Assembly: GCF_022376835.1 (NCBI RefSeq) | Contig: NZ_CP084606.1 | Location: 924,501 to 988,500 of the forward strand | Source: Brucepastera parasyntrophica | Lineage (GTDB): Bacteria > Spirochaetota > Spirochaetia > Treponematales > Treponemataceae | Length of the DNA: 64,000 bases | Reading direction: 5' to 3' | Shown here: positions 47,561 to 56,118 of the stretch, piece by piece | Numbering within the stretch: position 1 is the stretch's first letter | Layout: each line of letters starts with the position of its first letter | Notes under the pieces: model-generated | What the model was told of the DNA's origin: nothing | The model's input: only the letters and a program-made list of their open reading frames with translations | The model's database searches: none | Translations under genes and position numbers: made by a program

Positions 47561-48456
47561 TCAATCACTATGTGCTGCTTTTAAACTGAACTGGAAGGGC
47601 ATCTTTGTATCAAAAAAGGGATAATGATATTCCCCGTACCCGCTGTTCGCCATTCCGCCAAGATCAAAAAACAGTTTATCAGATTCATGCAAATACTCGA
47701 TTTTCAGCCCGGCTTCTATTAATGAGTTTATCACCTCACTTATAGTGTACATCCAGAAATAGTTTTCCCCTGCTTTGGCTTCCGAAGCATATCCTCCGAT
47801 ATCATCACTGTAATCCGGCTTCTTCAGGAAATAGGGATATTTCAGTACCAGTTTTTCATTCCGCAGTTCCGTTTCGTCAAACATCAGGAAAAACGGATGA
47901 GAATCCAGTATATAAAAATATCCGCCTTTATGTAATAACTGCTTCACAGTCTTTGTCCATTTTTTCAAATCAGGGAGCCAGTCTATCGCCCCTTCCGATG
48001 TAAAAACAATATCATATTTTTCCTGATGCATTTCCGCTAATTTCATGATATCACATTCAATAAATGATATATTTTTCACACCAAGTTCTTCAGCCATTTT
48101 CCGCGCATAAAAGATATTTTCCGGGACCAGGTCTACTCCGGTTACAACCGCGCCTTTTCTTGCCAGTGAAATTGAATCCGCGCCGGTGTTGCATTGCAGA
48201 TGGATGAGGGTTTTTCCCGATATACACCTTTAATTTAAGTTTCTGATATAAAGAATTAACTAATTCTTTTATATCAGAAACACTTACAATCGGAAATAGT
48301 CAAATAATTTAAATTATTTGACTATATATCTCCGAGTTCTTTTTCAATAACGCCGCTCAAAACGGAGTCCCGCTCCTGCAGACTTTTTTTAAAATGCTTA
48401 TAATGGTCTTCCGCCAGAAGAGACCAGGCCTTCATGTTAGCTTCAATTTCTTTCAA
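47561..48456 (-). pseudogene. SAM-dependent methyltransferase split by a 99-bp element
   Basis: The first part (48456-48322) starts at TTG 48456 behind GGAGGG (or ATG 48471) and reads KEIEANMKAWSLLAEDHYKH to KELGDI then stop. The second part (from about 48219 down to 47561) resumes with SGKTLIHLQCNTGADSISLA, VVTGVDLVPENI (motif I) and IVFTSEGAIDWLPDLKKW. Joining them by removing 104 bases (element plus one target copy) restores an uninterrupted 263-residue class I methyltransferase. In the present sequence a TAG lies at the left junction and a TAA just before the right one, so the protein cannot be made whole. Substrate unknown. Confidence 0.88.
48225..48323 (-). mobile_element. Two-hairpin repeat element, copy 1
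   Basis: 99 bp. Read on the minus strand: a 26-base palindrome AGTCAAATAATTT.. (48298-48323), a 16-base spacer, a 43-base hairpin with GTTTCTGATATAA and TTATATCAGAAAC arms, then CTTAAATTAAAGGTG. It is flanked by ATATA at 48220-48224 and 48324-48328 (plus strand), consistent with a 4-5 bp target duplication, and it interrupts the methyltransferase gene. It has no coding capacity. Confidence 0.85.
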
Positions 48457-48623
48457 ACGGATACCCTCCATAAAAGTTTTTATCCGGTTCCGCCGCGGAA
48501 ATTACCCCTCTTTTAAAAGCCGGGATGTCCGCATCAGCTGGCAGCGGCACTTTTCACAATTATACCAATTTCAGGAATATTTTCATAAAAAAACGGCATA
48601 AAATACCGAAAATTCAAAAAAAG

Positions 48624-48658
48624 TAGTTAATTCTATTAAATTATGTATAATATATAAT
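48624..48658 (+). promoter_or_regulatory. Promoter of the DHH gene, near-leaderless
   Basis: Two overlapping -10 boxes, TATAAT at 48646-48651 and at 48653-48658; TAGTTA (48624-48629) is a possible -35 for the first. The ATG at 48666 is 7 bases from the second -10 and has no Shine-Dalgarno (AGAAGCA). Confidence 0.55.
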
Positions 48659-48665
48659 AGAAGCA

Positions 48666-49897
48666 ATGGAAAATGAAACTGGTGTTTTTAAACAATCAAG
48701 TGAGACTCAGAATGCCGGACGCCGGAAACACGATTTCAGGACAATCGCTGAAAAAAACCGGACCATTGATAGTATTATACATGTCATTACGGAAAATGAT
48801 TCTTTCCTGATGCTGGGCCATAAAATACCGGACGAGGACTGCATTGCCTCAATGGTATCCATGGGTATAATCATTACCAAATTCAATAAAAACGCTTCAC
48901 TTTATCTTCGGAACCAGATACCGGAAACGCTCGAGTATCTGAAAAAAATCTGTACCTATAACAATATACAGATATTTTCTAATGATGATATCCTGACAGC
49001 AAAGCCGGATGTTATCTGTGTGCTTGATACGCCGAAACCGGCGCACATCGATTCAAATCCGTCCATTATGCCGTATCTTACAAATAAACGGGCGCGGGTA
49101 ATTGAATTCGATCACCATCTGGCTGCGGACGCGGAATACTGCGGAGATGAAGGCTACTGTTTTGTAGCCAGGGCATCCAGCACCTGCGAGATTCTGGGGC
49201 ATTTTTGCTGCAAGTTGGATAACAAGCCCGATGTAGTTGAAAAATATGATATACGGGACCTTTTTTCACGAAATCTGGTTCTTTCCATTCTGACCGGGAT
49301 GATAGGAGATACAAAATACGGCCTCACTCTGAAATCCAACCGTGAAATATTTTTCTATAATCTCTTCTGTCAGTATTTCGCGGAAATTCTGAAAAAGACT
49401 TACCGGAAAAACAGCGGCAATTACTCGTCGCTTCATGAAATATATAAAACACTTCAGGGCGTTTCAGAAGATGAAAAGGAAATCTATCTGAAGCTGCTGG
49501 AAAAAGATAAATATGCCAAACATATTCATTATGTTGTATTGAATGAAGAAGAATCACGTAAATTTGACGAAATGGATCAGGGGCTGTTCATAAAAACCAT
49601 AAAAGCCGTTACCGATTTTCTCGCGGAAAAATCGGGGACTTTCGGGATGGCAGCCTATTATGATAAACCGGAAATTTCCGATCTGATTCAGTTCAGGGTA
49701 CGCACAGCCGGAAATGTTGTCAATATTGATTTGCGGGACATTCTTGCAACCCTTTCCCTTACTGACGGCGGCGGGCATCCCGGCGCCATAGCTTTCCGGG
49801 TACAAAAAAAGAAATGACCGATCTCAGGGCTTTTACCAGAAAGATTATTGAAGCGCTTCAGAATCTCAGGGAAAAGGCATATCCTGATGAAGACTGA
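48666..49897 (+). CDS. DHH family phosphoesterase (one apparent frameshift near the C-terminus)
   Basis: 410 residues if one base is restored in the A7 run 49804-49810; otherwise it would stop at 49817, losing the last 27 residues (TDLRAFTRKIIEALQNL). DHH domain: LGHKIPDEDCIASMVSMG, VLDTPKP, EFDHH (the namesake motif) and GMIGDTKYG, all metal ligands of the NrnA/GdpP-like family. DHHA1: DGGGHPGAIAFRV. Relatives degrade nano-RNA or cyclic dinucleotides; an N-terminal region of about 45 residues is non-catalytic. It overlaps queH by 11 bases. Confidence 0.85.
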
Positions 49898-55300: not shown

Positions 55301-55794
55301 AGATATATACCATTGTCGGAATGGTAAGGTCCCTCCGCCCATACCAGACAAAGGCCGGAAAGTGGATGTGTTTCGGGACTTTTGAAGATTTTAACGGAAC
55401 AATTGATCTGACTTTTTTTCCGGGAATCTGGGAACAGTGCAGAGACAAGGTTCAGCCTGATACGGTGTGGGGACTGACCGGAACAATAGATTTATCGCGA
55501 AACGCTCCTGTTTTCCTTGTAAAAACACTTATAAGTCCGGACGAACTTCAGACAAAGTCAATCCGCGAAATCCATATAAAAATAGATTCGGCGGTACGGG
55601 AAGCCCATATTCTGAATCCGCTCAGGGATTTTTTATTTGGCTCCAGCGGCAATTGTTCTGTATATTTGCACATGAACGATGCGAACCGGCAGTTTATGAT
55701 TAAGACGGCAACCCAGATATGCGCCTCGGCTAATGATGAATTTCTTGAAGAAGTCCAGACAAAACCCGGAGTAGTTCAGGTATGGAGGGAATAA
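52355..55794 (+). CDS. dnaE: DNA polymerase III alpha subunit (one apparent frameshift)
   Basis: Replicative polymerase, 1,146 residues after restoring one base in A7 52989-52995. PHP domain at the N-terminus (FVHLHAHTDFSLLDGA, ITDHGNMFG), polymerase core with [23 protein letters not shown] and the catalytic Asp motif MPDFDVDFC, the LNALYRPGPM and [23 protein letters not shown] signatures, then an HhH region (TLNKKAAEVLIQTGCFDNL) and an OB fold (IYTIVGMVRSLRPYQTKAGKWMCF). It is a stand-alone gene with an apparent leaderless start and a TAA at 55792-55794. Confidence 0.96.
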
Positions 55795-56012
55795 AAACAA
55801 CCTGAAACTCAAACCATCCGTTTTTTTGCTTTGTTCACATCAGTGTGGAAGCAATGGTAAAAAGCTTTTTAGAAACTCAGTCAGTTTTGAAAAAAGCTTA
55901 TGAAAAAAATGCTATTTCTGTACTTCCGGAGAAAATAGTATTTTTCCTTCAGCTAAATATACTGCGGTTTTTCAAATCACATTTTGAAAGGCCCTGTACT
56001 AAAGGATTTATA
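55795..56012 (+). other. Gap after dnaE with a hairpin
   Basis: No gene seen. AAGCTTTTT and AAAAAGCTT form a 9-bp long-loop inverted repeat at about 55863-55901, possibly a weak terminator of dnaE. The gap ends at the second copy of the repeat element. Confidence 0.4.
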
Positions 56013-56111
56013 TAGTCAAATAATTTAAATTATTTGACTGTTTCCGCTAGTACGTGTTTCTGATGTAAAGAATTAACCAATTCCTTACATCAGAAACTTA
56101 AATTAAAGGAT
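56013..56111 (+). mobile_element. Two-hairpin repeat element, copy 2
   Basis: About 99 bp, inverted relative to copy 1 and clearly homologous: the 26-base palindrome at 56014-56039 is unchanged, the spacer is diverged, and the hairpin 56055-56096 has arms GTTTCTGATGTAA / TTACATCAGAAAC. The A-T pair of copy 1 is a G-C pair here, a compensating change. TAAAGGATTTATA occurs on both sides (55999-56012 region and 56104-56116). The right end provides AAAGG 9 bases before the next ATG. Confidence 0.85.
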
Positions 56112-56118
56112 TTATAAT

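Follow-up and report, generated by a model that had tools for sequence, protein, structure and literature searches.

The window is the 64,000-base stretch at positions 924501-988500 of the Brucepastera parasyntrophica chromosome (genome G000, a single contig of 3,239,032 bases). It carries two copies of a two-hairpin element in opposite orientation, one inside a methyltransferase gene and the other upstream of a YggT-family gene (Table 1). A covariance model, R1, built from 30 copies in the genome and run over the window with no filters, detected these two as the only convincing copies, with E-values, which are rough for this model, of about 1e-18 each. The preliminary description had reported both inverted copies as 99-bp sequences at 48225-48323 and 56013-56111; the pair was confirmed, and its true limits lie slightly further out. 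The division into a 26-base palindrome, a 16-base linker and a 42-base hairpin also holds, the hairpin measuring 43 bases in copy 1.

Table 1. The two element copies and the adjoining genes (positions in the window)
Feature	Position	Strand	Basis and remarks
Split methyltransferase, 3' part	47558..48220	-	ISGKTLIHLQC... to stop codon; Methyltransf_31 E 2e-17; 62% identical to intact G042 protein
Element copy 1	48221..48326	-	106 bases TATA to TATA, net insertion 104; within methyltransferase gene; R1 113.1 bits; empty site in homologue L206
Copy 1 hairpin 2, 43 bases	48239..48281	-	sequence and compensatory changes
Copy 1 conserved linker, TTTCCGATTGTAAGT type	48282..48297	-	sequence; core TTCCGATTGTAA common to sub-families
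Copy 1 hairpin 1	48296..48325	-	holds 26-base palindrome 48298-48323; sequence and compensatory changes
Split methyltransferase, 5' part	48327..48456	-	TTG start after GGAGG; encodes ...EKELGD; start aligned with L206 Met
Probable original Shine-Dalgarno AAAGGA of YggT gene, upstream of copy 2	56001..56006	+	sequence; AAAGGATTTATA on either side of copy 2
Element copy 2	56011..56116	+	upstream of YggT-family gene; R1 115.7 bits
Copy 2 hairpin 1	56012..56041	+	26-base palindrome 56014-56039; region fold z -8.4
Copy 2 linker	56040..56055	+	sequence
Copy 2 hairpin 2, 42 bases	56056..56097	+	sequence and compensatory changes
Shine-Dalgarno AAAGGA from right end of copy 2	56105..56110	+	sequence; family-wide position before start codons
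YggT-family gene, ATG after copy 2	56119..56700	+	Pfam YGGT E 1e-20

Conserved genes between 44600 and 58740 of the window look frame-shifted or interrupted. recG is spread over four overlapping frames (56701-58737), and the acetolactate synthase gene (45004-46772), dnaE (52355-55794) and a SulP-type transporter gene (50534-52191) have a similar appearance. These disrupted conserved genes suggest indel errors in the assembly, which may explain its 88% completeness.

Removal of 104 bases restores a single open frame in the methyltransferase gene, as had been claimed, and the proposed 263-codon length holds with a TTG start at 48456, a residue aligned to the initiator Met of an intact homologue. 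That homologue, L206 (G042 C10:6899-7540; 62% identity, E 6e-93, 272-residue open frame), is the nearest one found; it comes from another family of the order, and G042 belongs to the genus that includes the element carriers G299 and G366. Its protein reads IEEEIGDISGKSVIHLQC against EKELGD-element-ISGKTLIHLQC in the window, and its DNA reads GGAGATATTTCCGGA against GGAGATA-element-TCGGGA, so that exactly 104 of the 106 element bases are extra. Thus the element does split the gene, and the insert is not common to all homologous methyltransferase loci. The empty site is a single case, at 62% protein identity; a joined-flank search of the fetched loci yielded no further ones. Among 119 genomes searched, just 3, this one included, had the methyltransferase gene, which is therefore accessory; judged by this distribution and by the placement of its nearest homologue in another family, it may itself have been horizontally exchanged.

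The 4-5 bp target duplication implied by the TATA-containing borders was not found. Comparison of left and right flanks (89 and 20 copies) revealed no duplication beyond the fixed TATA, which rules out a long target duplication, and the empty site explains no more than two bases (TA). Instead of a duplication, the flanks display an asymmetric target motif, G-N-R-W-W-W-TA, with the G on one side only. This G, six bases upstream of the element, is present at 74 of 114 copies in this genome, at 49 of the 72 copies away from start codons (p 6e-16) and at 39 of 57 copies in relatives.

The family extends far beyond the two copies first described. The 3.24-Mb chromosome holds at least 117, comprising 114 covariance-model matches and short or truncated forms recovered by pattern searches, at a density of about one copy per 28 kb. 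A BLAST search of the genome with copy 2 gave 40 relatives over the full length, 82-91% identical, and a second model, made from another sub-family that belongs to other genera, recovered nearly all the same copies and added a few older ones. The preliminary description had expected copies in this and related genomes, and we found them in 17 of 394 genomes of the order, representing 12 genera (this genome plus 16 genomes in 11 further genera); copy numbers from this survey, in which at most ten matches per genome were scored, are lower bounds. The possibility that no genome holds further copies was thereby examined and dismissed. When GTDB species genomes were scanned for exact patterns, Breznakiella homolactica emerged as a carrier, with 12 copies. 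Apart from G000 and one more genome, all carriers fall in Breznakiella's family, and the element was detected in no other searched member of G000's own family; therefore, horizontal spread is likely. Many copies in G299 and G324 are identical or almost so, and hence moved recently. Viral contigs searched with four exact patterns gave no match.

The consensus reads TATA-GTCAAATAATTTAAATTATTTGAC-TATTTCCGATTGTAAGT-GTTTCTGATATAAAGAATTAGYTAATTCTTTATATCAGAAAC-TTAAATTAAA-GG[A/T]G-TATA. All sub-families share one layout, namely hairpin 1, TTCCGATTGTAA, hairpin 2 and the tail GG[A/T]G-TATA, and those of other genomes have entirely different hairpin sequences (for example TATTCCCTGACAATTTGAAATTGTCAGGGAATTCCGATTGTAATTGTTTGTCAGGTAAGGAATTAGCTAATTCCTTACCTGACAAACTCAAATCTATGGAGTATA) in the same order of parts. 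The single compensating A-T to G-C change noticed earlier in the larger hairpin is one among many: across 122 aligned copies, both sides are altered in 24 of 27 pairs, 96.4% of cells are paired, and double-change cells number 247 against 39 in shuffles, values from an alignment that was fitted to the model and hence leans towards the structure. The covariation signal is lost when the structures are slid. Whole parts are also exchanged, as in the copies at genome positions 3201755 and 2492898, where hairpin 1 has been swapped entirely, and in a chimeric copy at 3098086-3098193 (L140:2501-2608), whose hairpin 1 belongs to the local sub-family and whose hairpin 2 and tail belong to one that is common in other genera. 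This second sub-family is also represented in G000 by degenerate copies (L075:6141-6217 and L128:2335-2437). Short forms of about 58 bases (1814492, 2124300, 2918483) have no hairpin 2. A search for a tetranucleotide guide at the hairpin feet showed that bottom-strand CGGAA before hairpin 1 is conserved and that the foot of hairpin 2 varies. Only TATA is clearly common to the two element ends. Thus the MITE label fits as far as a short non-autonomous mobile element is meant, but not as a strict miniature inverted-repeat element.

The two ends differ in their relation to genes. We called gene boundaries with a simple codon-usage gene caller over about 520 kb of fetched stretches around copies, the scope of all our genomic context work. 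The boundary at the right end is a gene start in 94 of 114 copies (p 1e-12), against 58 of 114 at the left end (58:56). In 42 of 114 copies (hereafter near copies), the terminal TATA is followed within 12 bases by an ATG that opens a frame of 50 codons or more, compared with 0 of 114 in a left-end mirror control; in relatives the figures are 25 of 68 and 1 of 68. The target motif by itself, weighted over all intergenic TA sites by the preference away from genes, predicts 4.7% rather than the observed 37%, the other 63% of copies being away from start codons. At such joints, for example AAAGGTGTATATATGGCAAAAAAAACG (ftsY), AAAGGAATATACATGAAAAAATACGG (rnfE) and AAAGGAGTAGATATGAAATACAAT (leuB), the right end of the element occupies the Shine-Dalgarno position. 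Of the near copies, 41 of 42 retain this Shine-Dalgarno core, compared with 61 of 72 others (p 0.05). Additionally, 22 of 42 near copies, versus 14 of 72 others, have a second core immediately to the left of the element, so that the element is placed between the start codon and an old Shine-Dalgarno. Copy 2 exemplifies this arrangement, reading AAAGGATTTATA, element, AAAGGATTTATA-AT-ATG of the YggT gene. The two AAAGGATTTATA stretches occupy 56001-56012 and 56105-56116, the family right end being AAAGG[A/T]GTATA, and the identity possibly reflects conversion of the element end by the adjoining original Shine-Dalgarno.

The genes that follow near copies are unrelated and include those for (d)CMP kinase (cmk), ftsY, secD, leuB, pyruvate kinase, a phosphoglycerate dehydrogenase-like protein, hflK, rdgB, an RsmE-type protein, rnfE and others. 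Several of them are members of families known to be essential in well-characterised bacteria; therefore, the supplied Shine-Dalgarno must work there unless another is used. From these sequence arrangements, ribosomes would appear to use the element-supplied Shine-Dalgarno. By carrier, start-codon copies account for 8 of the 12 in Breznakiella and 0 of the 10 in G209; G299 and G324, where the element was recently active, have 7 among 22. The excess among young copies points to some targeting, and the higher fraction among the diverged Breznakiella copies speaks for survival.

We consider it probable that the copies, about 104 bases long, are non-autonomous mobile DNA with a Shine-Dalgarno tail, moved by a trans-acting recombinase. 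The suggestion that an IS with matching ends might mobilise it found no counterpart in this genome, where Y1, DDE_3 and IS110 transposases were examined. Two resident IS110 copies have ends unrelated to the element, and an IS110 derivative was thus rejected; these copies, L148 (1797671) and L149 (2856950), are 98.5% identical to each other, with right-end hairpins wholly different in sequence followed by a common CCCCCTCGTCC. Integron attC sites were also considered; their boxes were not seen by eye. Separated ends, as an autonomous parent would have, were sought in the fetched loci, and only relics and short forms were seen.

A narrower form of the same explanation, which we hold as tentative, is that a REP-like element was dispersed by a Y1 transposase (RAYT or IS200-like) that G000 has since lost. 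The palindrome with its conserved tag (bottom-strand TCGGAA before hairpin 1) and the very high copy number would suit it, as would the presence of Y1 genes in 5 of 16 carriers. However, no Y1 gene (Y1_Tnp) was detected in G000, the tag is neither GTAG nor CGTC, and the Y1 genes elsewhere are not flanked by the element: those of Breznakiella, whose complete genome has a single one, and of G299 are RAYT-like, and that of G373 is IS200-like, all with no element alongside. The closest lead is in G223, where a broken IS200-like gene has TACACCAT...GCGGAA-hairpin by its start codon, the layout of the short form. Next to the gene start stands TACACCATTTTTTAGCGGAA-hairpin-CTATAATG, whose opposite strand reads hairpin, TTCCG, ATGGTGTA, again as in the short form. 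The resemblance of this hairpin end is suggestive and may be taken as a lead only; plasmid relatives of the G223 Y1 gene have an ordinary IS200 layout. The GCGGAA-tagged hairpin occurs twice in G223 (L212:1643-1695 and about L212:2110-2145), about 460 bases apart, and the pair flanks an ORF of some 79 residues that looks CopG-type, next to the broken gene. A MITE of an IS630/Tc1-mariner-type element, comparable to Correia/NEMIS or RUP and creating a TA duplication, would explain TATA at both ends, the single TA that the empty site explains (104 of 106 bases net) and the MITE-typical size and copy number. We regard this origin as very improbable, since the termini show no clear inverted repeats other than TATA, the sub-families conserve the internal hairpins and not the ends, the target is asymmetric, and no DDE_3 (IS630-type) transposase was detected in G000.

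The hairpins could instead act as RNA, the family being a cis-acting regulatory leader or riboswitch-like sequence copied upstream of a gene set, with mRNA hairpins controlling the Shine-Dalgarno. The sense orientation of copies before start codons, strong folds (z -5 to -8) and a weak CC:GG pairing of linker TTTCC with the Shine-Dalgarno GG in the folds are in keeping with this idea. On the other hand, the window has no Rfam 15 match at gathering score, the downstream genes have no common pathway, the majority of copies lie away from start codons, and one copy destroys the methyltransferase gene. Hairpins kept as sense RNA in place are expected to tolerate G-U more than A-C mismatches, but we counted 56 G-T (G-U) and 61 A-C. 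Moreover, near copies pair worse than far copies (92.9 vs 95.6%, p 0.005). This mismatch symmetry and the poorer pairing at start codons favour a role of the hairpins in DNA mobility, not RNA regulation, and we consider the regulatory RNA unlikely, although in the predicted folds the TTTCC pairing with the Shine-Dalgarno GG may confer some regulation. Resident hairpins decay, and the strong covariation therefore stems from selection among moving copies. The structure is thus under selection, as proposed earlier, but during mobility rather than in place, the decaying copies having no preference for G-U over A-C. As regards strand bias relative to replication, the GC skew of the genome is weak.

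For the mobile element with a Shine-Dalgarno tail, we propose the following mechanism. The two hairpins, the 12-base conserved spacer and the tail GG[A/T]G-TATA would serve as signals for a trans-acting recombinase. This enzyme most likely acts on single-stranded DNA, as IS200/IS605-type (HUH) enzymes do on hairpin ends, and we infer that it is HUH-like. It would place the element beside a TA, with a G at position -6 relative to the element and no long target duplication. Since the tail would double as a Shine-Dalgarno, an element that lands between a gene's own Shine-Dalgarno and start codon would rebuild the initiation region; such copies would therefore be harmless and kept, even before essential genes. 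In its boldest form, which we offer as a possibility open to considerable doubt, the family represents a new class of hairpin-ended mobile DNA whose recombinase is yet to be recognised. The element would insert preferentially between a Shine-Dalgarno and the start codon, bringing a replacement Shine-Dalgarno with it. Initiation regions would then be a safe harbour, and dozens of housekeeping genes would depend on a transposon-borne site.

An insertion immediately upstream of a gene usually disturbs that gene, and an end that rebuilds the ribosome-binding site would let selfish DNA exceed 100 copies in a compact genome. The element would also be a route by which many genes gain the same translation signal. 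Cultured Breznakiella homolactica offers a means of testing the system, which also poses the question of which enzyme moves the element.

Among known systems, IS200/IS605 derivatives (PATEs) share with this family the hairpins near both ends, an asymmetric 5'-side target and the lack of a target duplication, and the right-end tail GG[A/T]G-TATA resembles the target G-N-R-W-W-W-TA. Conserved subterminal hairpins (24 of 27 pairs) and a fixed 5' target with no duplication are thus found here, the two bases TA being ambiguous. According to PMC6006769, IS200/IS605 enzymes recognise hairpins in combination with a tetranucleotide guide located 5' to the hairpin foot. Unlike PATEs, the present element has a conserved spacer between its hairpins, and its host genome has no Y1 gene; a tetranucleotide guide was not clearly recognisable. 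In IS200/IS605 left ends the guide lies between the cleavage site and the hairpin, whereas here hairpin 1 abuts the element end, and the match to that family is therefore incomplete. No clear parental IS200/IS605 element with the same ends was seen in the carriers. With the REP, REPIN and BIME sequences of RAYT systems, as portrayed in PMC3116915, PMC2817692 and PMC3733652, the family has in common more than 100 intergenic palindromic copies and hairpin sequences that vary between species while the layout is kept. It differs in lacking a GTAG or CGTC tag, in the fixed order of its two unequal hairpins, and in its Shine-Dalgarno tail and its placement at start codons. CGTC-type REPs are, according to PMC3733652, likewise without a known transposase.

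Correia/NEMIS, RUP and ERIC, as reviewed in PMC2229807 and PMC10969869, are also non-autonomous intergenic elements of about 100 bp that use TA-rich targets and alter host transcripts; unlike our element, they have terminal inverted repeats. Neither of these two MITE reviews, in the sections covered, mentions a Shine-Dalgarno or start-codon placement, and a search for mobile ribosome-binding sites, over a partial coverage of the literature, returned nothing relevant. Measured against those portions of the two MITE reviews and the REP papers, an element that carries its own Shine-Dalgarno would be novel.
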